Source of the DNA: a virus
IMG/VR virus record: IMGVR_UViG_3300008108_005458
Coordinates: 1-64,000 of that record
Strand: one strand, 5' to 3'
DNA length: 64,000 nt
A model generated the notes under the pieces. That model was not told where the DNA came from. It saw only the letters and a list, made by a program, of their open reading frames with translations, and did no database searches. Below, in pieces: positions 1 through 49,904 of the stretch. Each line of letters opens with the position of its first letter. The stretch's first letter is position 1. A program made the position numbers and the translations under genes.

Positions 1-3000
1 CGATGAACCTGAAGATCTACTTAAACCCGATGTACCGTTTGTTCCTGAAGAACCGCTTGATGCACTCGATCCGCTTAATTGTGATAAACCTGAGTTACCA
101 GCGGTACCTGAAGTACCAGTTGTACCTGAGCTAGCTGAAGAACCAGCAGACCCTGAAGAACCGCTTAATTGTGACAAACCTGATGTACCTGCGGTACCGC
201 TTGTTGCGGAACTACCAGAAGTTGCTGAAGAACCTGAATTTGCGGATGCACCATTTGTACCGTTTGTACCTGTAGACCCACTAGAACCTGATGTACCCGA
301 AGATCTACTCAATGCCGATGCCCCATCAGTACCTGCTGATCCTGAACTACCTGAACTACCTGAAGTTCCAGAAGTTGCTGAAGTTCCAGCCGATCCTGAA
401 GAACCTGATAATTGAGATAAACCATTTGTACCAGCTGTACCTGAAGTTGCAGAAGAACCACTTGATCCTGAAGATCCAGAGTTTGCAGAAGCACCAACAG
501 TACCGCTTGTACCACTTGATCCTGAAGAACCTGAAGTTCCAGCAGAACCACTATTATTTGAAGAACCTGAAGTTCCAGTTGTACCAGTTGTACCTGAAGA
601 AGCGCTTGTACCAGATGAACCAGAGTTAGCTGAAGCACCATTTGTACCGCTTGTACCAGTTGTACCGCTTGTTGCAGAAGAACCTGAAGTTGCGCTTAAA
701 CCACTATTACCTGCATTACCTGAAGTACCGTTTGTACCAGTTGATCCGCTTGATCCTGAAGAACCAGAAGTTCCTGAAGATTTACTTAATGCAGAAGCAC
801 CGTCTGTACCAGCTGAACCTGAAGATCCACTTGATCCAGATGTACCTGAAGTAGCTGAAGTTCCAGCAGAACCCGATGAACCACTCAATTGAGACAAACC
901 AGAAGTACCAGCTGTGCCTGAGGTTGCGGATGAACCAGAAGTTGCTGAAGACCCTGAATTTGCGGATGCACCATTTGTACCAGCTGATCCTGAAGATCCA
1001 CTTGAACCTGATGTACCACTTGATTTACTTAATGCCGATTGACCATCTGTACCTGATGTACCAGTTGAACCGCTTGAACCAGACGTTCCTGAAGTATCTG
1101 ATGTAGCTGATTGTCCATCCGTACCTGAAGTACCAGACGTTCCAGCTGTTGCTGAAGAACCAGACAATCTTGATAAACCTGATGTACCAACTGTTCCTGA
1201 AGTTGCAGATGAACCTGAAGTTGCTGAAGAACCACTATTTGCTGATTGACCACTTGTACCAGCAGAACCTGAAGATCCTGAAGATCCTGATGTACCACTA
1301 GTTGCTGAAGAACCAGCGGATCCAGCACTACCGCTTAATTGTGATAAACCACTTGTACCAGCTGTACCTGAAGTAGCGGAAGAACCTGATGTTGCTGAAC
1401 TACCAGAGTTTGCAGAAGCACCATTTGTACCCGCAGTTCCAGTTGATCCTGATGAACCAGAGGTACCACTTGATTTACTTAAAGCGGATGCTCCATCAGT
1501 ACCAGCCGATCCTGAAGACCCGCTTGATCCAGAAGTTCCTGAAGTTGCTGATGTACCAGCGGATCCACTTGACCCACTCAATTGTGACAACCCTGATGTA
1601 CCAGCGGTTCCTGAGGTAGCTGAACTACCTGAAGTTGCGGATGAACCACTATTTGCGGCTAAACCTGAAGTACCATTAGAACCTGTAGAACCAGAAGATG
1701 CTGATGTACCAGAAGATGCTGATAATGCACTTAAACCTGAAGAACCTGCGGTTCCTGACGTTGCTGAAGAACCTGAACTACCAGCAGAACTGCTTAACGC
1801 TGAACTACCAGAGGTACCTGTTGTACCACTTGTTGCGGAACTACCGCTTGTCGCAGAAGAACCGCTATTTGCAGCTAAACCTGAAGTACCATTTGTACCA
1901 GTAGAACCTGAAGATCCACTTGAACCAGATGTACCTGAAGATTTACTTAATGCTGACGCACCATCAGTACCCGCACTACCTGAAGAACCAGAAGAACCTG
2001 ATGTTCCTGAAGTCGCAGATGTACCCGCTGAACCAGAAGAACCACTTAATTGAGACAATCCTGATGTACCAACTGTACCTGAAGTTGCGGATGAACCAGA
2101 AGAAGCTGAAGTTCCTGAAGAAGCTGAAGCCCCACTAGAACCAGCTGAACCAGTTGACCCACTTGTTCCTGAGGTTGCGGATGAACCCGCAGAACCTGAA
2201 GAACCACTATTAGCTGAAGAACCAACTGTACCAGTAGTACCTGATGTACCACTTGATGCGCTTGTTCCTGATGAACCTGAATTTGAACTTAATCCTGAAG
2301 TACCATTTGTACCTGAAGTTGCTGAAGATCCGCTTGACGCTGATGTCCCTGAAGACGCTGATGCTCCCGAAGAACCGTTAGAACCTGTAGAACCAGAGGT
2401 ACCACTTGTTGCTGAACTACCAGAAGACGCTGATAAACCAGATGAACCTGCGGTTCCTGAAGTTGCTGAAGATCCTGATGAAGCTGAACTACCAGAATTA
2501 GCTGATAAACCTGAGGTACCATTTGTACCTGAAGTTGCTGAAGAACCAGCTGTACCACTTGTTGCTGAAGACGCTGAAGCTCCTGATGAACCACTTGTTC
2601 CTGTAGAACCAGCTGTACCGCTTGTTGCTGAACTACCAGAAGATGCTGACAACCCACTTGAACCAGCTGAGCCAGAAGTTGCGGATGATCCTGATGTAGC
2701 AGAGCTACCACTATTTGCACTCAACCCTGATGTACCATTTGTTCCACTTGTAGCTGAACTACCAGAAGAAGCGGATGTACCTGAAGAAGCTGAAGCACCT
2801 GAAGCACCAGCTGTACCGCTTGAACCAGAGGTACCTGAAGTTGCAGAAGAACCACTTGAAGCACTTAAACCTGAAGAACCAGCTGTACCTGAAGTAGCGG
2901 AGCTACCTGAAGTCGCTGAGGATCCGCTTAATGCGCTTAAACCACTTGTACCATTTGTTCCTGAAGTTGCGGATGAACCAGAAGATGCTGATGTACCTGA

Positions 3001-5040
3001 AGAAGCTGAAGCTCCTGATGACCCTACTGAACCTGAAGAACCTGATGTTCCTGACGTAGCAGAACTACCAGAACTTGCACTCAATCCTGAAGAACCTGCG
3101 GTTCCTGAAGTTGCTGAGGATCCTGATGTGGCAGAGCTACCACTATTTGAAGATAGACCTGACGTACCAGCTGTTCCTGAAGTAGCGGAGCTACCTGAAG
3201 AACCTGATGAACCAGAACTATTACTATTTCCACTCGAACCTGCGGTTCCTGAAGAAGCTGAACTTCCTGAAGAACCCGATGTACCACTAGTTGCAGATGA
3301 CCCACTTGTAGCGGATGATCCAGAATTAGCAGCTAAACCTGAAGTACCATTTGTACCTGAAGTTGCTGAAGATCCGCTTGACGCTGATGTCCCTGAAGAT
3401 GCGCTTAAACCTGAAGAACCAGCTGATCCAGCTGAACCTGATGTTCCTGACGTAGCAGAACTACCAGAAGATGCGCTTAAACCTGAACTACCTGATGTAC
3501 CGCTTGTAGCAGAGCTACCTGAGGTTGCAGAAGAACCTGAATTAGAACTCAACCCTGATGTACCATTTGTTCCTGAAGTTGCGGATGAACCAGAAGATGC
3601 TGATGTACCTGAAGAAGCTGAAGCTCCTGATGAACCAGCGGAACCACTTGTTCCCGAAGTACCAGAAGATGCTGAACTACCAGAAGATGCACTTAAACCT
3701 GAAGAACCAGCTGTACCTGAAGTTGCAGAAGAACCAGAGGAAGCTGATGACCCACTATTTGAGGCTAAACCTGAAGTACCATTTGTTCCACTTGTAGCTG
3801 AACTACCAGAAGAAGCTGATGTACCAGAAGAAGCTGAAGCCCCTGAAGAACCTGATGTACCAGATGATCCTGAAGTAGCGGAAGTTCCTGAAGAACCCGC
3901 TGAACCAGAGCTACCACTATTTGCGGCTAAACCAGAAGTACCATTTGTACCTGAAGTTGCGGAAGAACCAGAAGAAGCTGAAGTTCCTGAAGAAGCTGAT
4001 GCTCCCGAAGAACCGTTAGAACCTGTAGAACCAGATGTTCCACTTGTTGCTGAAGATCCAGAAGAAGAACTTAAACCTGAAGAACCAACTGTTCCTGAGG
4101 TTGCGGATGAACCTGATGTTCCTGAAGAACCAGAGTTACTAGATAAACCGCCAGTACCATTTGTACCCGTAGAACCGCTTGAACCAGATGTTGCTGAAAT
4201 AGCAGAAATACCATCAGCACCATCAACACCGCTTGAACCAGATGTACCTGAAGAACCCGAAGAACCTGATGTTTTACTTGAACCAGCTAAACCGCTTGTA
4301 CCTGTCGTACCTGAAGTCGCAGATGTACCTGAAGTTGCAGAAGAACCACTATTTGAAGATAATCCTGAAGTACCGTTTGTTCCTGAAGTTGCTGAAGATC
4401 CGCTTGATGCAGATGTTCCTGATGTTGAAGAAACACCGCTTGATCCAGCTGTACCAGAAGTTGCTGAAGAACCTGAGGTTGCTGAACTACCAGAAGATGC
4501 AGATAAACCCGAAGATCCTGATGTACCACTTGTAGCAGAACTACCTGAGGTTGCAGAAGAACCACTATTTGAAGATAAACCCGAAGTACCGTTTGTTCCT
4601 GAAGTTGCAGAAGAACCAGATGATGCAGACGTACCTGAAGTTGCTGAAGCACCTGAAGAACCAGCGCTACCTGTTGATCCTGATGTTCCTGATGTAGCAC
4701 TTGATCCAGCTGAACCAGAAGACGCACTTAAACCAGAAGTACCAACTGTACCAGAAGTTGCTGAAGAACCTGAAGAAGCTGAAGCGCCAGAATTACCACC
4801 AGTTCCTGAAGTTCCTGAAGAACCACTTGAACCAGATGAGAATGATAATCTACTTTGACCAGCAACACCAGTTGTACCATTTGTACCAGAAGAACCAGAA
4901 GAACCTGAAGTTTCACTTAAACCACTGTTTGAACTAGCACCATTTGTACCGCTAGAACCTGAGGTTGCAGAAGAACCTGAGGTTGCGCTTGAACCACTAT
5001 TTGCGGCTAAACCAGAAGTACCGATTGTACCTGAAGTTGC
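1..5040 (-). repeat. Gly/Ala alternating hexad coding repeat
   Basis: In this half the typical unit is G-S-S-A-T-S (18 bp), so a small residue still falls every third position but Ala alternates with Gly. Strict collagen triple helix needs Gly at each third position, so this half probably folds differently from the N-terminal Gly-X-Y half. Confidence 0.7.
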
Positions 5041-8000
5041 AGACGAACCTGAAGATGCTGCTGAACCTGATGACCCACTTTCACCACTTGAACCATTAGA
5101 ACCTGATGTTCCTGAAGAACCAGCTGTTCCTGAAGAGGCTGAGTCGCCAGAACTTCCTGATGTTCCAGTAGAGCCTGAAGCACCACTTGAACCAGATGTT
5201 CCAGTAGAACCGTTATCACCAGAAGAACCGTTTGTTCCTGAAGAACCAGAAGCGCCTGATTCACCATTTAAACCATTTATACCTGAAGAACCTGAAGATC
5301 CAGTTGACCCTGAAGACCCACTTTCACCACTTTCACCTGAAGTACCAAAACTACCACCATCACCAGATGTACCATCGCTACCTGTAGAACCAGATTCACC
5401 CGATTGACCAGATGTCCCAAATGAGCCATCATTACCCGAAGATCCATCGCTACCTGTAGAACCAGATTCACCACTTATTCCTGAAGTTCCTGAAGAACCG
5501 TTATCACCGCTTGTACCATCCGATCCTGTACTACCACTTTCACCGCTTATTCCTGATGTACCGTTAGAACCTTCGTTTCCTGATGTACCATCTGATCCAG
5601 TTGAACCTGATTCACCACTTATTCCTGAAGTTCCTGAAGAACCGTTATCACCGCTTGTACCATTTGAACCAGTTGACCCAGAGTCGCCACTTACACCCGA
5701 TGTACCATTAGAACCATCATTACCTGATGTACCATCTGAACCAGTTGAACCGCTTTCACCTGATAAACCACTTGTACCGTTAGATCCGTTATTACCTGAT
5801 GTGCCATCACTACCCGTGCTACCACTTTCACCTGATACACCAGAAGTTCCACTTGAACCATTATCACCAGAAGAACCATCTGAACCAGTTGATCCCGATT
5901 CTCCACTTATACCAGAGGTTCCGTTGGAGCCATCATCACCTGAAGAACCGTTAGTTCCTGAAGAACCTGAAGCTCCGCTTTCACCATTTAAACCATTTAT
6001 ACCTGAAGAACCTGAAGATCCAGTTGATCCCGAAGACCCACTTTCGCCAGATTGGCCAGATGTTCCAAATGAACCATCATTACCTGAAGAACCATCTGAT
6101 CCAGAGGATCCAGACTCACCTGATATACCAGATGTTCCAAATGAACCATCATTACCTGAAGATCCATCGCTACCTGTGGAACCAGATTCACCCGATTGAC
6201 CAGATGTACCGTAAGACCCATCAGCCCCACTTGATCCATCTGACCCAGTTGATCCAGACTCACCACTTATTCCCGAAGTCCCTGAAGATCCGTCATTACC
6301 TGATGTGCCATCACTACCAGTTGAACCTGATTCTCCACTTATTCCTGAAGTTCCATTTGAACCATTATCACCGCTACTACCATCACTACCAGTTGATCCA
6401 GACTCACCACTTATTCCTGAAGTCCCATTAGATCCGTCATTACCTGAAGATCCGTCTGAACCAGTTGAACCACTTTCACCTGATTGACCTGAAGTTCCGT
6501 TGGAACCATCGTTACCTGAAGACCCATCTGAACCAGTAGACCCAGATTCACCACTTATACCAGAGGTTCCAAAACTACCGTTAGCTCCTGAAGAACCGTC
6601 TGAACCAGTTGAACCTGATTCACCACTTATACCAGAGGTTCCGTTAGAACCGTTATCACCAGAAGAACCGTTAGTTCCTGAAGAACCTGAAGCTCCGCTT
6701 TCACCATTTAAACCATTTATACCTGAAGAACCTGAAGATCCAGTTGATCCTGAGGATCCCGATTCACCACTTTCACCTGAAGTACCAAAACTACCGTCAG
6801 CTCCTGAAGAACCATCACTACCCGTGCTACCACTTTCACCTGATTGACCAGATGTTCCTGAAGAACCGTCATTACCTGAAGATCCGTCTGAACCTGTGCT
6901 ACCACTTTCACCGCTTATCCCTGATGTTCCAAATGAACCATCCGCTCCTGAAGAACCATCTGACCCAGTTGATCCAGACTCACCACTTATTCCTGAAGTA
7001 CCATTAGATCCGTCATTACCAGATGTACCATCTGATCCAGTAGACCCAGATTCACCTGATTGGCCAGAGGTTCCAAATGAACCGTCAGCCCCACTTGATC
7101 CATCGGATCCTGTAGAACCAGATTCACCTGATTGGCCAGAAGTACCAAAAGATCCATCATTACCTGAAGAACCTGAAGATCCAGTTGATCCCGATTCTCC
7201 ACTTATTCCTGAAGTTCCATTAGATCCGTCATTACCTGAAGATCCGTCTGAACCTGTGCTACCACTTTCACCACTTATTCCTGAAGTCCCATTTGAGCCA
7301 TTATCGCCTGATGTACCATCTGAACCAGTTGATCCTGACTCGCCAGATTGGCCAGAAGTACCAAAAGATCCATCATTACCTGAAGACCCATCTGATCCAG
7401 TAGACCCAGATTCACCCGATTGACCAGAGGTTCCAAATGAACCATCATTACCTGAAGACCCATCTGAACCTGTGCTACCGCTTTCACCCGATTGACCAGA
7501 AGTACCATTTGATCCGTCATTACCTGAAGAACCATTGGATCCGTTTGATCCCGATTCACCACTTATTCCTGAAGTTCCATCAACACCATCAACACCATCA
7601 ACACCATTTGTACCAGAAGTACCACTTTCACCTGATGTACCAGATTCACCCGATGAACCACTTTCACCAGATTGGCCAGATGTACCGTTAGAACCATCCG
7701 CTCCTGAAGAACCATCTGAACCAGTAGACCCAGATTCACCACTTATACCAGAGGTTCCTGAAGAACCGTCATTACCACTACTACCATCACTACCAGTTGA
7801 ACCAGATTCCCCTGAAGTCCCGTTAACGCCTGTTGTACCAGAATCACCGTCCGAACCGTTAGTTCCTGAAGAACCTGAAGCTCCGCTTTCACCATTTAAA
7901 CCATTTATACCTGAAGAACCTGAAGACCCAGTTGATCCTGAAGACCCACTTTCGCCAGATTCACCTGAAGTTCCATTTGAACCATTATCACCACTACTAC

Positions 8001-9543
8001 CATCACTACCTGTACTACCACTTTCTCCACTTACCCCTGAAGTTCCTGAAGAACCATCATTACCTGATGATCCATCTGATCCTGTACTACCGCTTTCACC
8101 ACTTATACCTGAAGTTCCGTTGGAACCATCGTTACCGCTTTCACCTGATGTACCATTACTGCCTGATTCACCAGAAATACCTGAAGTACCAAAACTACCA
8201 TCATTACCACTTGACCCATCTGATCCTGTTGATCCCGATTCACCACTTATACCAGAGGTTCCGTTAGAACCACTTTCTCCACTTATTCCTGAAGTTCCTG
8301 AAGAACCATCATTACCACTAGATCCGTCAGACCCTGTTGAACCTGATTCACCAGAAATACCTGAAGTACCAAAACTACCGTCAGCTCCTGAAGAACCATC
8401 TGATCCTGTTGACCCAGATTCACCAGAAATACCAGAAGTTCCATTGGAACCATCGGCACCACTTTCACCTGAAGTACCAGTTGACCCTGATTCACCTGAA
8501 ACACCTGAAGTACCATTAGAACCATCGTTACCGCTTATCCCACTTGTGCCATCAACACCATCAACACCATCAATACCATTTGTACCAGAAGTACCAGATT
8601 GACCACTCGTACCATCATTTCCTGTGCTACCAGATTCACCTGATATACCTGATGTTCCATTTGAACCATCCGCTCCTGAAGAACCATCTGAACCAGTACT
8701 ACCAGATTCACCACTTACTCCTGAAGTCCCTGAAGATCCGTCATTACCTGATGTGCCATCACTACCAGTTGAACCTGATTCACCACTTATACCAGAGGTT
8801 CCGTTGGAACCATCTGCTCCTGAAGAACCGTCAGAGCCAGTTGAACCACTTTCTCCACTTATTCCTGAAGTTCCTGAAGAACCATCATTACCACTTTCAC
8901 CTGATGTGCCATTACTACCACTTTCTCCACTTAAACCTGAGGTTCCGTTACTACCATCATTACCCGATGTACCATCTGATCCTGTTGACCCAGATTCGCC
9001 AGACATCCCCGAAGTTCCGTTGGAGCCATCGGCACCGCTTTCACCTGAAGTACCAGTGCTACCTGATTCACCACTTATCCCTGAAGTTCCTGAAGAACCA
9101 TCATTACCACTACTACCATCACTACCATTACTACCTGATTCTCCAGAAACACCAGATGTACCATCAGAACCACTCAAACCCGAATAACCTGAAGTACCAG
9201 CTGTACCAGAAGTACCTGTTAATAAAGGTGAATATGAATATTCACCAGTAGCTGCATTAAACGACACAAAATAGTTCGGTGAACTATTTTCGGTCATTCC
9301 TGTAACAAATAACTCATTTAAAATATAAACACCCTTAAGATCTTGGGTGTTTTCCCACTGTCCAGTGGTATCGTTCCAAACTAAAATGTCCCCTTCATTG
9401 GGGCCACTAATTACAACGTCAGATAGATCATCTATTCCAAGATTTTCTATAACGTCTTTTATATTTTGGAAGTTAGCATCTAATTCCGCATAGGATAGTG
9501 CCCTTCCTAGATCGTCTCTAAGATAAATTGTTACTGTTGCCAT
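1..9543 (-). CDS. Giant collagen-like fibre protein, 3' end outside window
   Basis: From the ATG at 9543 the minus frame stays open to the window edge in every stretch I read, giving at least 3,181 codons. Residues 1-110 are non-repetitive and carry LSYAELDANFQNI, a signature found at the N-terminus of many phage fibre proteins; this part probably anchors to the virion. From about residue 113 to 1,480 the chain is Gly-X-Y (GTS, GSS, GSD, GND, GES). Beyond that, hexads such as G-S-S-A-T-S dominate, with Ala replacing every second Gly. Pro appears rare. A block containing GINGLNGE recurs with its DNA ending at 5280, 6000, 6720 and 7908. The role is inferred to be a long adhesive or tail fibre. 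Long ORFs on the plus strand here are antisense shadows. Confidence 0.85.
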   Translation of the reverse strand, partial: MATVTIYLRDDLGRALSYAELDANFQNIKDVIENLGIDDLSDVVISGPNEGDILVWNDTTGQWENTQDLKGVYILNELFVTGMTENSSPNYFVSFNAATGEYSYSPLLTGTSGTAGTSGYSGLSGSDGTSGVSGESGSNGSDGSSGNDGSSGTSGISGESGSTGTSGESGADGSNGTSGMSGESGSTGSDGTSGNDGSNGTSGLSGESGSNGTSGESGNDGSSGTSGISGESGSTGSDGSSGADGSNGTSGISGESGSTGSDGTSGNDGSSGTSGVSGESGSTGSDGSSGADGSNGTSGISGESGSTGNDGTSGQSGTSGTNGIDGVDGVDGTSGISGNDGSNGTSGVSGESGSTGTSGESGADGSNGTSGISGESGSTGSDGSSGADGSFGTSGISGESGSTGSDGSSGNDGSSGTSGISGESGSNGTSGISGESGSTGSDGSSGNDGSFGTSGISGESGSNGTSGESGNDGSNGTSGISGESGSTGSDGSSGNDGSSGTSGVSGESGSTGSDGSSGDNGSNGTSGESGESGSSGSTGSSGSSGINGLNGESGASGSSGTNGSDGDSGTTGVNGTSGESGSTGSDGSSGNDGSSGTSGISGESGSTGSDGSSGADGSNGTSGQSGESGSSGESGTSGESGTSGTNGVDGVDGVDGTSGISGESGSNGSNGSSGNDGSNGTSGQSGESGSTGSDGSSGNDGSFGTSGQSGESGSTGSDGSSGNDGSFGTSGQSGESGSTGSDGTSGDNGSNGTSGISGESGSTGSDGSSGNDGSNGTSGISGESGSTGSSGSSGNDGSFGTSGQSGESGSTGSDGSSGADGSFGTSGQSGESGSTGSDGTSGNDGSNGTSGISGESGSTGSDGSSGADGSFGTSGISGESGSTGSDGSSGNDGSSGTSGQSGESGSTGSDGSSGADGSFGTSGESGESGSSGSTGSSGSSGINGLNGESGASGSSGTNGSSGDNGSNGTSGISGESGSTGSDGSSGANGSFGTSGISGESGSTGSDGSSGNDGSNGTSGQSGESGSTGSDGSSGNDGSNGTSGISGESGSTGSDGSSGDNGSNGTSGISGESGSTGSDGTSGNDGSSGTSGISGESGSTGSDGSSGADGSYGTSGQSGESGSTGSDGSSGNDGSFGTSGISGESGSSGSDGSSGNDGSFGTSGQSGESGSSGSTGSSGSSGINGLNGESGASGSSGTNGSSGDDGSNGTSGISGESGSTGSDGSSGDNGSSGTSGVSGESGSTGSDGTSGNNGSNGTSGLSGESGSTGSDGTSGNDGSNGTSGVSGDSGSTGSNGTSGDNGSSGTSGISGESGSTGSDGTSGNEGSNGTSGISGESGSTGSDGTSGDNGSSGTSGISGESGSTGSDGSSGNDGSFGTSGQSGESGSTGSDGTSGDGGSFGTSGESGESGSSGSTGSSGSSGINGLNGESGASGSSGTNGSSGDNGSTGTSGSSGASGSTGTSGSSGDSASSGTAGSSGTSGSNGSSGESGSSGSAASSGSSATSGTIGTSGLAANSGSSATSGSSATSGSSGTNGASSNSGLSETSGSSGSSGTNGTTGVAGQSRLSFSSGSSGSSGTSGTGGNSGASASSGSSATSGTVGTSGLSASSGSAGSSATSGTSGSTGSAGSSGASATSGTSASSGSSATSGTNGTSGLSSNSGSSATSGSSATSGTSGSSGLSASSGSSATSGSSATSGTAGSSGVSSTSGTSASSGSSATSGTNGTSGLSSNSGSSATSGTSATSGTTGTSGLAGSSKTSGSSGSSGTSGSSGVDGADGISAISATSGSSGSTGTNGTGGLSSNSGSSGTSGSSATSGTVGSSGLSSSSGSSATSGTSGSTGSNGSSGASASSGTSASSGSSATSGTNGTSGLAANSGSSGSAGSSGTSATSGSSGTSGSSGASASSGTSASSGSSATSGTNGTSGLASNSGSSASSGSSATSGTAGSSGLSASSGSSASSGTSGTSGSAGSSGASASSGTSASSGSSATSGTNGTSGLSSNSGSSATSGSSATSGTSGSSGLSASSGSSATSGTSGSAGSAGSSGLSASSGTSASSGSSATSGTNGTSGLAANSGSSATSGSSATSGTSGSSGSSASSGTAGSSGNSNSSGSSGSSGSSATSGTAGTSGLSSNSGSSATSGSSATSGTAGSSGLSASSGSSATSGTSGSSGSVGSSGASASSGTSASSGSSATSGTNGTSGLSALSGSSATSGSSATSGTAGSSGLSASSGSSATSGTSGSSGTAGASGASASSGTSASSGSSATSGTNGTSGLSANSGSSATSGSSATSGSAGSSGLSASSGSSATSGTAGSTGTSGSSGASASSATSGTAGSSATSGTNGTSGLSANSGSSASSGSSATSGTAGSSGLSASSGSSATSGTSGSTGSNGSSGASASSGTSASSGSSATSGTNGTSGLSSNSGSSGTSASSGTSGTTGTVGSSANSGSSGSAGSSATSGTSGSTGSAGSSGASASSGTSASSGSSATSGTVGTSGLSQLSGSSGSAGTSATSGTSGSSGSSGSAGTDGASALSKSSGTSGSSGSSGSTGTNGTSGLAANSGSSATSGSSATSGTTGTSGSSALSSSAGSSGSSATSGTAGSSGLSALSASSGTSASSGSTGSNGTSGLAANSGSSATSGSSATSGTAGTSGLSQLSGSSGSAGTSATSGTSGSSGSSGSAGTDGASALSKSSGTSGSSGSTGTAGTNGASANSGSSATSGSSATSGTAGTSGLSQLSGSAGSAGSSATSGTSGSSGSSGSAGTSGQSANSGSSATSGSSATSGTVGTSGLSRLSGSSATAGTSGTSGTDGQSATSDTSGTSGSSGSTGTSGTDGQSALSKSSGTSGSSGSSGSAGTNGASANSGSSATSGSSATSGTAGTSGLSQLSGSSGSAGTSATSGTSGSSGSSGSAGTDGASALSKSSGTSGSSGSSGSTGTNGTSGNAGNSGLSATSGSSATSGTTGTSGTNGASANSGSSGTSASSGTTGTTGTSGSSNNSGSAGTSGSSGSSGTSGTVGASANSGSSGSSGSSATSGTAGTNGLSQLSGSSGSAGTSATSGTSGSSGSSGSAGTDGASALSRSSGTSGSSGSTGTNGTNGASANSGSSATSGSSATSGTAGTSGLSQLSGSSGSAGSSASSGTTGTSGTAGNSGLSQLSGSSASSGSSGTNGTSGLSRSSGSS
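5040..9200 (-). repeat. Gly-X-Y coding repeat with 720-bp super-repeat
   Basis: The DNA repeats in 9-bp units encoding Gly-X-Y triplets. A longer conserved block (GINGLNGESGASGSSGTNG region) ends at 5280, 6000 and 6720, exactly 720 bp apart, and again at 7908, 1,188 bp further. All spacings are multiples of 9. This suggests growth by unequal recombination that preserves frame. Confidence 0.75.
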
Positions 9544-30773: not shown

Positions 30774-31118
30774 ATGAAAAACTACTAGATTAACAAATTA
30801 ATCATCGTAACCAGAAAGGACTTAGCACCAGGTTACCAAATTGCTCAAGCGAGTCACGCTTTAGCGCAATTCATGCTTGACTATCCTGATCAAGCTAATC
30901 AATGGAACAATAACTATCTTATCTGTTTGTCCGTTGAAAACGAAAATCAATTAAAAACTTTACTGGAAAAGATGTGTATGCATGACATACCCATATCTTA
31001 TTTTCTCGAACCAGATCTTGGTAACGAGATGACAGCTATTGCTTTTCAAGGAAGTGAAAAGGCGAGTAAATTAACTTCGTCTATACCATTGGCATTAAAA
31101 TCTTATAATAAACAATAA
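30774..31118 (+). CDS. PTH2-type peptidyl-tRNA hydrolase with in-frame TAG
   Basis: ATG AAA AAC TAC TAG ATT: codon 5 (30786-30788) is amber, then the frame is open to a TAA at 31118. Total 114 codons, the normal PTH2 length. After the TAG, NKLIIVTRKDLAPGYQIAQA and SHALAQF match the PTH2 N-terminus with its catalytic Lys/His region, and YFLEPDLGNEMTAIAFQG matches the C-terminal half. No ATG, GTG or TTG lies between the TAG and the ATG at 30873, which would remove the active site. Full function therefore needs amber readthrough, plausibly by the CUA tRNA at 32059. PTH2 frees tRNA from stalled peptidyl-tRNA. Confidence 0.8.
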
Positions 31119-31128
31119 ATCAACGATT

Positions 31129-31386
31129 ATGAAGTAGATTACAAAAAAACCAGAAGAGATCGTGTTTCACTTTAATAAGAAACATCTCGAAACCCCAACA
31201 ATCCCCATGTGGGTTGTGAAGTGTCGTGGCGACACCTATTATGTTAACCATATTGATGTATCCCCTGGTGTGGGGTTCTCAACAAAGGAAACTCCTGATA
31301 ACCCTCATACTAAAGGGAGTATAAAATTCAAGGCCAACTTGATGATTGAGGAACAAAATAACATAATTAACGCTAAAATTTATTAA
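31129..31386 (+). CDS. Conserved phage protein with in-frame TAG
   Basis: ATG AAG TAG ATT: codon 3 (31135-31137) is amber, after which 82 codons are open (ITKKPEEIVFHFNKKH, DTYYVNHIDVS, FSTKETPDNPHTKGSIKFK). The last segment looks like a small conserved protein of T4-like phages. A GTG at 31162 is an alternative start that would lose the ITKKPEE segment. Both TAG codons are followed by ATTA. It lies 10 nt after the PTH2 gene and 2 nt before the next, in an operon leading into the tRNA array. Confidence 0.7.
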
Positions 31387-31388
31387 AA

Positions 31389-31733
31389 ATGAAAAACACA
31401 AAACACAACCCAACAATGATGATTAAATCAGCTTTCTCAAATAAACTTCACAAAATACTAGGTGAATGCATCGAACACAAACGCTATTCAAGAGAATGGT
31501 ATGATTGTAAAAGAGTAAAAACCAAATTGACTGATGAGGATAAAATTAAACTTTTTGATGAGATCAAAACCATCTATGAAGAAACTTCTCAAGAACTGAG
31601 AAATTATTTTCAGGATAGAAATCTTAAGAAAAGAGTTGAAAAAGAACGAGTTAAGAGAGGTTATACCCCAAAAAAGAAGACAAAAAAAGAGGATTATGAA
31701 AAAAATCTTCAAGAAAATTTGGATAGTAAATAA
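31389..31733 (+). CDS. Basic helical protein, 114 aa
   Basis: Lys/Arg/Glu-rich, helical throughout (IKLFDEIKTIYEETSQELRN, KKRVEKERVKRGYTPKKKTK). No motif recognised. It is the last protein gene before the tRNA array and its 3' end overlaps the -33 box of the promoter at 31718. A role in RNA or translation is inferred only from context. Confidence 0.65.
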   Translation: MKNTKHNPTMMIKSAFSNKLHKILGECIEHKRYSREWYDCKRVKTKLTDEDKIKLFDEIKTIYEETSQELRNYFQDRNLKKRVEKERVKRGYTPKKKTKKEDYEKNLQENLDSK

Positions 31734-31749
31734 ATTTGTCTTAGTTTTG
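31718..31749 (+). promoter_or_regulatory. Host-type promoter of tRNA array
   Basis: TTTG, 20-nt spacer, TAGTTTTG; about 30 nt before the first tRNA-like element. Confidence 0.7.
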
Positions 31750-31778
31750 TAGTCCAGTTGAGTTAAAGACTCAATGGA

Positions 31779-31919
31779 TGTTGTGTGACGAAATTGGTAT
31801 ACGTGCTGGTCAGTACCCAAAAGAGTGTAGAATGGGGGAAACTGGCGGACATACTACAGACACGAGTAGTAGGAGATTAGGTCTTTAAATCCATGTGGGT
31901 TCGAATCCCACCACAACAG
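31779..31919 (+). tRNA. Oversized tRNA-Leu-like element, 141 nt
   Basis: Acceptor strands TGTTGTG and CACAACA pair, and the T arm (GTGGG-TTCGAAT-CCCAC) is perfect. Between them lie two D-arm-like segments (TGACGAAATTGGTATACG and GGGGGAAACTGGCGGAC) and about 50 nt more than a type II tRNA. I cannot assign an anticodon. It may be a tRNA with an insertion, a fusion of two tRNA genes, or a remnant. Confidence 0.4.
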
Positions 31920-31920
31920 C

Positions 31921-31980
31921 GCACCAACATAAGGTTGGAACCTCAAGGCTACGTAGAGGATAATGGTTAACGTAGCAAAT
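31921..31980 (+). ncRNA. Inter-tRNA spacer with possible pseudoknot
   Basis: A hairpin CCAAC/GTTGG (31924-31938) is followed by CCTC (31941), GCTACG (31948), GAGG (31956) and CGTAGC (31971). The pairs CCTC-GAGG and GCTACG-CGTAGC interleave as an H-type pseudoknot. Confidence 0.4.
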
Positions 31981-32051
31981 GGTTGGATGACCGAGAGAAT
32001 AGGTAAAAATCCGCAAGATTTTTTACGGTGGTTTGAATCCATCTCCAACCT
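31981..32051 (+). tRNA. tRNA-like, possible Cys (GCA)
   Basis: Acceptor GGTTGGA/TCCAACC, discriminator T as in tRNA-Cys, D stem ACC/GGT, T stem GGTGG/CCATC. The anticodon stem AAAAT/ATTTT holds CCGCAAG, placing GCA at 34-36. Position 33 is C instead of U, and the D loop lacks the GG pair, so it may be degenerate. A better tRNA-Cys lies at 32668. Confidence 0.45.
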
Positions 32052-32058
32052 CTAAAAT

Positions 32059-32133
32059 GGCTCTATGGTGTAGCGGCAACATAGGAGACTCTAAATCTCA
32101 CAGTCACGGGTTCGAACCCCGTTAGGGCCACCA
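32059..32133 (+). tRNA. Amber suppressor tRNA (anticodon CUA)
   Basis: 75 nt including an encoded CCA. Acceptor GGCTCTA/TAGGGCC with discriminator A, U8, A14, D arm GTG/CAT, T arm ACGGG-TTCGAAC-CCCGT. Anticodon arm GGAGA-CTCTAAA-TCTCA has a G-A mismatch at 27-43 but four good pairs; the 7-nt loop has U33 and A37, giving anticodon CUA, which reads UAG. The charged amino acid cannot be read from sequence. Two genes upstream in the same operon carry early in-frame TAG codons. TAG is also used as an ordinary stop at 16553, 48416 and 51225, so suppression is probably partial. Confidence 0.8.
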
Positions 32134-32167: not shown

Positions 32168-32198
32168 TTGTTTTTTTCAGAAACTTTGCTTAATTTTG
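32168..32198 (+). promoter_or_regulatory. Host-type promoter of short transcription unit
   Basis: TTG, 20-nt spacer, TAATTTTG. Predicted transcript start near 32204. Confidence 0.7.
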
Positions 32199-32667: not shown

Positions 32668-32737
32668 GTATAAGTTGATCGTGGTGGTCGGTTGGTCTGC
32701 AAAACCAACGGTGTTGGTTCGATTCCAACCTTATACT
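32668..32737 (+). tRNA. tRNA-Cys (GCA)
   Basis: Acceptor GTATAAG/CTTATAC, discriminator T as required for Cys, anticodon arm TTGGT-CTGCAAA-ACCAA, T arm GTTGG/CCAAC. Confidence 0.9.
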
Positions 32738-48418: not shown

Positions 48419-49904
48419 TTTAAAATCCATAGGAGATGCAAATCTCCCAATCACCCTGGTGTCCGCAACATACACCGCACTGGACACCGACTACATTATA
48501 AATGCAACATCTGGAACGTTTAATATTACCTTACCCACAGCGGTTGGTATAACAAATAAACTTTATATTATAAAGAATAGCGGGACGGGTGTTGTTACCA
48601 TTGTAACAACAGGTAGCCAAACGATTGATGGAAGTTCGGCATCAATAAACCTTACGCAAAACACAAGCATATCTATCCAAAGTGATGGATCAAACTGGAT
48701 TATTACCACAGCTTCTGCAACAGGCAATCCAACGGAGATACAATACAACAAAAACGGATCTTTCGCCTCTTCATCTAACTTAACTTATGATGATAGCACC
48801 AACACCTTTTTATCTAATGGGATTAGTGCGCTACGTAGAAAAGTGGAGATCGGCATAAACGCTGATTGGGTATTCGTAAGCAGAGCGGATGATTTGCCCG
48901 CAGCAGTTGGTGGTGTTATCACTTTGCTTGATAACATAACTTATATGTTTGTGTGTGTGGTGGACCTTCAGGGTGATCGTTTAGTGTGTGGAGACAACAC
49001 AACACTTTTGGGCGGCTCCTCGGAAAACTGTAGGATATTATCAACTGGTTTAACTGGTCAAGCTATGATATCATCAGTATACTCCTTACCGATCAGGAAT
49101 TTAACAATTGAAGCGGACGTGGCTTTAAACTTAGCTGGTAATGTTACAACATCTGCAATAGACTGGTTTGGTGTTAACTTTACCAACTGCAATACAATAG
49201 GCGTAATAAGAGATTACGCAAACGTTATCATGACGGACTGCGCTTTCTTGGAAAGCGCTTCATTAACCTTTGATGGAACCATCGGAACGGTTGGATTCGC
49301 CCAATGTTTATTTAATGGAACCACTGGTAATACCATATTTATTTTACCACCAAGTTTAACCATTTCCAGAAGATTTAGAATTATTTACAGTTCATTTGTG
49401 GTTTTATCAGGTGAAACGGGAATCAACGTATCAACCACAGCAACCATACCAGCGGATGCTTATATTTTAACATATTGCAATTTTTCGGGTGGTGGCACAT
49501 ATTTGGCTGGTCACGATCATACCTCAAACAAAGCTTTATTTATTAATAATGTTGGTATAACTAACTCAAGTAACGTTGGTCATTATTATATGCAGAACAA
49601 TGCCACTGCAACTACGGGTATAGTTCAAAACACTTATCTGAAAGCTGCTGGGACAACTGTTGTTGGGGCTGGTAACTCCCCGAAATGGACTACCGCAACT
49701 ACTAATAGATTAACTTATGCGGGTAGTATAACAACTGAATTTATAATTACTGTGGTTGGAGGTACACCAATGCCATTTGCAACACAAGACGTTATCCAAG
49801 TCGCCACTGGTGACTTTTTTGAGATATGGGTAACTAACGAGACAGGTACTCAAGCGATAACGTTAACAGATTTAAATGTGATTATACAGAAAGTTACTGG
49901 ATAA
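48408..49904 (+). CDS. Tailspike-like beta-helix protein
   Basis: 498 aa. N-terminal domain (about 1-110) has ALDTDYIINATSGTFNITLP and TIDGSSASINLTQNTSISIQ, common in phage tail-fibre heads. Residues 150-400 show short turns of a parallel beta-helix (NLTIEADVALNLAGNVTTSA, TDCAFLESASLTFDG, YCNFSGGGTYLAG). The C-terminal 100 residues may trimerise. Possible glycan-binding or lyase spike. The start overlaps the Nudix gene end by 11 nt. Confidence 0.75.
   Translation: MPYSLKSIGDANLPITLVSATYTALDTDYIINATSGTFNITLPTAVGITNKLYIIKNSGTGVVTIVTTGSQTIDGSSASINLTQNTSISIQSDGSNWIITTASATGNPTEIQYNKNGSFASSSNLTYDDSTNTFLSNGISALRRKVEIGINADWVFVSRADDLPAAVGGVITLLDNITYMFVCVVDLQGDRLVCGDNTTLLGGSSENCRILSTGLTGQAMISSVYSLPIRNLTIEADVALNLAGNVTTSAIDWFGVNFTNCNTIGVIRDYANVIMTDCAFLESASLTFDGTIGTVGFAQCLFNGTTGNTIFILPPSLTISRRFRIIYSSFVVLSGETGINVSTTATIPADAYILTYCNFSGGGTYLAGHDHTSNKALFINNVGITNSSNVGHYYMQNNATATTGIVQNTYLKAAGTTVVGAGNSPKWTTATTNRLTYAGSITTEFIITVVGGTPMPFATQDVIQVATGDFFEIWVTNETGTQAITLTDLNVIIQKVTG

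Follow-up and report, generated by a model that had tools for sequence, protein, structure and literature searches.

Introduction

An early in-frame stop codon can serve as a regulatory device. The gene for release factor 2, prfB, is autoregulated at an early in-frame UGA that is passed by a +1 frameshift. Recoding of stop codons in phages was reportedly treated by Borges et al. in 2022. In code-15 phages, among them crAss-like and Lak phages, a phage suppressor tRNA reads TAG and the host code is standard (PMC9523058, PMC6784885, PMC13037316). In a feed-forward loop, or leak dampener, engineered in E. coli for tight expression, a suppressor tRNA allows translation of genes that have an amber codon immediately behind their start (PMC7969014). 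The phages XacN1 (PMC5852040) and Summit (PMC9022506) encode a CUA tRNA without recoding TAG, and targets for these tRNAs were sought and not found. Jumbo-phage PTH2 has been put forward as a possible ribosome-rescue factor (PMC7824862).

The present work concerns genes, found in many large bacteriophages, in which a stop codon, nearly always TAG, stands in frame within a few codons of the start, and which are generally accompanied by a CUA tRNA; we call such a codon a gate. A search of the openly available literature, with subscription papers mostly outside it, found no description of such a gate. We argue that the arrangement is very probably an amber AND-gate that makes a PTH2-type peptidyl-tRNA hydrolase, a second phage protein and genes coupled to them conditional on a working phage tRNA.

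Results

The two interrupted genes. The window, i.e., the whole stretch of DNA that was analysed, comprises bases 1-64000 of a 67,732-base IMG/VR virus record. An earlier note on this DNA had reported two genes interrupted by an early TAG. Both TAGs are real, the frames at 30774 and 31129 being otherwise open to TAA. The first frame is a PTH2-type peptidyl-tRNA hydrolase gene on the plus strand (30774..31118), which specifies 114 aa when the TAG at codon 5 is read through, and which ends with TAA at 31118. It begins ATG AAA AAC TAC TAG ATT at 30774, and its sole interruption is the plus-strand TAG at 30786-30788, in the context TAG-ATT. That TAG is kept in the related loci L003-L007 and stands at the same position in distant PTH2 genes. 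The product matched the PF01981 PTH2 profile at 27.5 bits (gathering cut-off 23) and aligned weakly with the solved PTH2 2zv3 (E=0.063). The second frame, gene 2 (31129..31386, plus strand), specifies 85 aa with TAG read through at codon 3 and belongs to a phage-only family. Its start is ATG AAG TAG ATT ACA at 31129, and beyond the gate (31135..31137, plus strand, again TAG-ATT) the frame is open until TAA at 31386; the great majority of gene 2 relatives have an early TAG. Gene 2 had no match in Pfam or PHROGs. In its family H, N, W, K, Y and E residues are invariant, and its structure model is mainly beta (pLDDT 92.6). Searched with that model, the PDB gave nothing below E 0.2, and BFVD gave weak matches, mostly to unnamed phage proteins. 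Gene 3 (31389..31733, plus strand) encodes a small basic protein of 114 aa; it is ungated and lies behind gene 2 in close relatives, with relatives present in L007, L015-L026 and others.

The suppressor tRNA. The tRNA with anticodon CUA that the earlier note had pointed out is likewise real: ARAGORN, which made 16 tRNA calls in the window, placed it at 32059..32133 on the plus strand, and Rfam RF00005 scored it at 58.9 bits. The same note had taken the tRNA to be co-transcribed with the two genes as one operon. Its position held up, 0.9 kb downstream of the gated genes on the same strand; the single operon is made less certain by a plus-strand, promoter-like sequence of the Bacteroidota type, TTG-N20-TAGTTTTG, which at 31719..31749 lies between the gated genes and the tRNA block and is a pattern match only. 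A second promoter-like sequence, also a pattern match only, follows the CUA tRNA on the same strand (32168..32198). Two further elements were noted nearby. A tRNA-Cys-like call at 31981-32052 adjoins the CUA tRNA and was unscored by RF00005; a second tRNA-Cys is at 32668. A tRNA-like element of about 142 nt (31776-31920) has acceptor and T arms that match, with an odd middle between them, and is nearly identical in L007; it showed no folding signal and had no relatives in the phage collection.

Gate conservation. In L003-L006 the PTH2 is 99% identical to that of the window. L007, from another metagenome, is more informative of constraint at the gate: its PTH2 protein is 97% identical, the preceding gene only 58%, and the PTH2 differences are mostly silent. 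One codon is deleted just before the TAG in L007, leaving TAG and frame intact, and both sides of the anticodon stem of its CUA tRNA are changed, leaving CUA as it was.

Gene 2 relatives in IMG/VR numbered 69 by single-sequence search and 307 by alignment search; none was found in 84,980 bacterial and archaeal genomes (GTDB). The matches listed covered 80 of the 307 alignment relatives; after near-duplicates had been removed, 74 loci were left for the survey of gates. The starts at each locus were read and the PTH2 profile was run over all loci. L030 is cut off, leaving 73 assessable distinct loci, and the lead gene was defined as PTH2, or as gene 2 where gene 2 comes first. A nonsense codon lay 1-9 codons past the lead-gene start in 70 of the 73 (69 TAG, one TGA, no TAA). 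The script itself tallied 66 TAG gates; inspection by eye added three that its filters had excluded, namely L058, with a GTG start, L124 and L128. The lead gene was ungated at the other three loci (L055, L061 and L074). Codon 3 was the commonest gate position (48 of the 75 gates counted). Many of the records are fragments, and because they share ancestry these counts are not independent trials. The early TAG is nonetheless more than chance, because it is kept in close relatives, L007 included, and in nearly all distant ones, and sequencing error, raised in the earlier note as a possible refutation, is excluded because many independent assemblies carry the TAG.

Where PTH2 lies upstream of gene 2 it is PTH2 that is gated, and in 11 such loci gene 2 has no gate of its own. 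Those ungated gene 2 copies, where they were read, follow close behind PTH2 with a Shine-Dalgarno at or near the PTH2 end, so that one gate can serve both genes. In certain clades, too, only the lead gene of the pair has a TAG. Among the sampled relatives gene 2 is gated more often than PTH2. Ungated forms have a start ATG at or near the gate position. L008 has an ungated PTH2 with a CUA tRNA directly after it, and gene 2 was not found there; in L075 an ungated PTH2 does not adjoin gene 2. The survey also turned up a gene 2 copy in L071 (~10049), downstream of a gated PTH2, with an extra internal TAG (HFNKAHITDP[TAG]GIPPW). Five gated loci (L016, L023, L034, L045 and L071) also encode tmRNA, another ribosome-rescue component.

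Suppressor tRNA linkage. A CUA tRNA was present in 57 of the 74 loci; the next most frequent anticodon was GCA (Cys), in 20 of 74. In 46 loci the tRNA nearest to gene 2 was CUA, at a median distance of 508 bases, and at every locus where it was listed the CUA tRNA lay on the gene strand. Part of the CUA tRNAs had been missed by ARAGORN and were recognised by pattern and by eye; in three further records, L056, L080 and L093, a CUA tRNA lies elsewhere. In all, 60 of the 70 gated loci could be paired with a matching suppressor tRNA. The 10 gated records in which none was detected are all linear contigs, at least three of them under 30 kb. A relaxed tRNA pattern gave no clear CUA tRNA in L075, L099 or L100. 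The converse, a CUA tRNA with the examined gene ungated, was seen in L055, L008 and the phages XacN1 and RAS14.

The CUA tRNAs are very diverse in sequence. In one case codon and anticodon have switched together: the PTH2 gate of Agrobacterium phage Atu_ph07 is TGA, and among the 31 tRNAs of that phage there is one UCA, far from PTH2, and no CUA, while its relative, Sinorhizobium phage Phosso, has a TAG gate and two CUA tRNAs. This switch, which comes from one lineage only, is the strongest single piece of evidence for the gate.

Cultured and named phages. Cultured phages were reached by searching with a divergent PTH2. Gated PTH2 genes were found in Pectobacterium phage CBB, Cronobacter phage GAP32, Xanthomonas phage XbC2, Serratia phage BF, Acinetobacter phage ME3 and Salmonella phage Arash, as well as in the huge uncultured phage LR756501; all of these also encode a CUA tRNA. 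In Rhizobium phage RHph_I1_18 a gated, unannotated gene 2 stands just ahead of the CUA tRNA. Seven cultured phages have both a gate and a CUA tRNA: CBB, GAP32, BF, ME3, Arash, Phosso and RHph_I1_18. In Arash (OQ632216, L267:2810-2884) ARAGORN calls CUA for a tRNA that was deposited as tRNA-Phe. Gated genes escape gene callers because a stop codon comes so soon after the start. The BF PTH2 site has no annotated gene, and the annotated PTH2 start is misplaced in CBB, GAP32, XbC2, Arash and Phosso. The divergent PTH2 members of CBB, GAP32 and ME3 score below the PF01981 cut-off.

The gene after PTH2 is HD-domain-like, as judged by the ME3 homologue, which matches PF01966 weakly (E=0.016). In CBB, GAP32, XbC2 and BF (L263-L265 and L270, from ~1821-1836) codon 47 of this gene is a second in-frame TAG, and the gene was deposited as separate ORFs; the ME3 and Arash homologues are intact, with valine at that site. 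XacN1 and RAS14 have an ungated PTH2 fused behind sequence resembling the end of the HD protein, and CUA tRNAs are present in both. The PTH2 gate was absent from XacN1, RAS14, RaK2, Hallingskeid and Lak-B7, and in RaK2 and Hallingskeid neither gate nor CUA tRNA was found. Around the CUA tRNAs of XacN1 and RAS14, out to 1.5 kb, the only ORFs with an early TAG were short frames of no recognisable kind. Mycobacterium phage Phabba has a TAG directly before a GTG start, which is ambiguous as a gate.

Stenotrophomonas phage Summit has, about 0.4 kb before its suppressor tRNA, an unannotated mini-ORF of the form SD-ATG-AAG-TAG-GTC-TAC-AAG-CCG-CCG-TAA, with a strong Shine-Dalgarno (MK[TAG]VYKPP; L342:1430-1470, i.e., ~49,430-49,470 of MZ326862). 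It is kept in DLP5 (L343) and DLP3 (L344) with one silent change, CCG to CCC, past the TAG; its flanks vary among the three phages, as does the suppressor tRNA itself. The mini-ORF is possibly a leader form of the gate.

TAG as terminator and as gate. It might be supposed that these phages simply use TAG as a sense codon, as in code 15, and that the early TAGs are incidental. The CUA tRNA would fit such a reading, as would a few other in-frame TAGs, namely that at codon 47 of the HD gene in the four related phages and a second TAG in some PTH2 and gene 2 copies. In the window, however, three larger genes end in TAG (16555+, 48418+ and 51225-), and readthrough would gain them only 5, 35 and 22 codons; the following base is T twice and A once. 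TAG ends 104 of 1078 ORFs (9.6%) in the gated loci and is therefore not generally a sense codon, in agreement with the earlier note's statement that recoding is not global. A plus-strand frame of 2,607 aa with 62 TAGs (3-7826) was considered as a sign of genome-wide recoding and rejected, since it arises as the antisense of a minus-strand repeat gene. That gene, a 3,180-aa open frame at 1-9543 with short repeats and a collagen-like look, runs off the window. Within the window an early TAG is gained only by PTH2 and gene 2. A wider set of gated genes was also sought and discarded: in a census of ORFs with early nonsense codons, with PTH2 and gene 2 excluded, TAG, TAA and TGA were about equally frequent, with no excess of early TAG. 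All told, it is very unlikely that TAG is a plain sense codon here.

Termination and gating TAGs also differ in their surroundings. After the 75 gates the next base is A in 66, G in eight, C in one and T in none; after the 104 TAG terminators of the same loci it is T, the commonest, in 41, A in 33, C in 19 and G in 11 (Fisher p=1.4e-14, a value that is only descriptive because the records share ancestry). In E. coli, T after a stop codon favours termination and a purine favours suppression. The gated loci thus have a conserved in-frame stop, a readthrough-prone context and, in the genome, a cognate suppressor.

Start signals. A second possibility is that a tiny upstream ORF terminates at the TAG and that ribosomes restart, without any suppressor tRNA, at an AUU-like start or an internal GTG. 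AUU is a known rare start codon, and ATT follows the TAG in most gates; in the window, moreover, gene 2 has a single GTG, nine codons past its TAG. Elsewhere, though, the next codon is ATA, ATC, AAT, AAC, CCC, GAA, GTT or GTA, and the GTG of gene 2 is not conserved. Restarting would suit any stop codon, yet TAA is absent among the gates. In 45 of the 48 gates that have one, the Shine-Dalgarno lies 6-8 nt ahead of the pre-gate ATG, a position that fits this ATG and leaves at least 12 nt to the codon after the gate; 30 gates, among them those in the window and in the majority of its nearer relatives, have no clear Shine-Dalgarno. In the window PTH2 no ATG, GTG or TTG occurs from the TAG to codon 34, a later PTH2 start would delete the conserved first strand, and the relatives have no conserved start past the TAG, which the earlier note had named as one finding that would count against a switch. 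In view of the varied next codons, the Shine-Dalgarno spacing and the missing TAA, initiation at AUU or an internal GTG was rejected; restarting of any such kind is extremely unlikely.

The start and gate might instead constitute a minigene that causes peptidyl-tRNA drop-off which PTH2 relieves, so that PTH2 would sense how active it is itself. Toxic minigenes such as lambda bar are 2-5 codons long, a range matched by gate lengths, and PTH2 is the enzyme for their products. Against this, gene 2 lacks a neighbouring PTH2 in 46 of the 70 gated loci, certain gates reach nine codons in length, and a minigene effect requires neither TAG in particular nor a CUA tRNA. Although such sensing could coexist with a gate, we hold it to be an extremely improbable explanation of the arrangement. 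Least credible, and close to negligible, is the idea that TAG inserts a special residue that the protein needs, e.g., pyrrolysine, which is unsupported because the ARAGORN label 'Pyl' on the CUA tRNA rests on the anticodon alone, while the N-terminus is variable, ungated versions begin at or near the gate position, the CUA tRNAs are so diverse and one lineage uses TGA.

Discussion

Conservation, the switch of codon and anticodon, stop-codon context and the genomes of cultured phages together lend strong support to the suggestion of the earlier note that the early TAGs form a switch dependent on a suppressor tRNA. The amber AND-gate would work as follows. Ribosomes would start at the ATG, meet UAG within a few codons and be halted there through host RF1. 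Were the CUA tRNA that the phage encodes next to these genes available in charged form, the UAG would be read through and the protein made, and TAG elsewhere in the genome would keep its meaning as a stop. Genes in tandem would need a single gate, in the first of them. We infer from this arrangement that in infected cells the gates are decoded by the phage tRNA. Such a circuit would be a natural AND-gate or coherent feed-forward loop in which the tRNA permits PTH2 and gene 2. The feedback loop that the earlier note had envisaged, with a tRNA-recycling enzyme gated by the suppressor, is conjectural; what the sequence supports is a feed-forward arrangement.

PTH2 and gene 2 stand behind gates, as does the HD protein in one clade. 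As to purpose, which is less certain than the gate, most likely a tRNA that no host supplies would report that the phage tRNA pool is ready, and only then would proteins that act on tRNA or peptidyl-tRNA be released. The main alternatives are that the gate delays expression, or that it couples recycling of peptidyl-tRNA to the readthrough that the suppressor causes. The chances seem to us about even that lone phage suppressor tRNAs are mainly regulators, each the key of a checkpoint that withholds PTH2, gene 2 and the PTH2-linked HD protein until the tRNA pool works. The gate would offer a likely use for phage suppressor tRNAs that had been listed without a known purpose and, if confirmed, a direct means of testing which purpose certain phage tRNAs serve and a route to hidden genes.

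Among known systems, the code-15 phages resemble the window in having a CUA suppressor tRNA, but in those phages many genes use TAG as a sense codon; here it is a normal terminator, and in-frame TAGs are concentrated where one or two genes begin. The earlier note's comparison with crAss-like phages was therefore inapt, because genome-wide recoding is absent. With jumbo-phage PTH2 the likeness lies in the enzyme family; the accessible part of that report holds no stop-codon gate or suppressor link (PMC7824862). The gate would supply targets for phage CUA tRNAs of the XacN1 and Summit kind, for which none had come to light (PMC5852040, PMC9022506). Those searches looked for readthrough at gene ends, whereas gates sit at gene starts; Summit has its conserved mini-ORF near the tRNA, and in XacN1 no such target turned up.

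The prfB gene is alike in that an early stop in a translation-related gene senses the translation machinery. It differs in that prfB uses a frameshift and its product is a release factor; at the gates the frame is kept, even through a codon deletion, a tRNA would be the key, and the products are PTH2 and gene 2. The engineered loop has the same layout as the gates (PMC7969014). It was built by design, and the phage gates are natural and conserved, on tRNA-related genes. If confirmed, they would be the natural counterpart of the engineered suppressor feed-forward loop.
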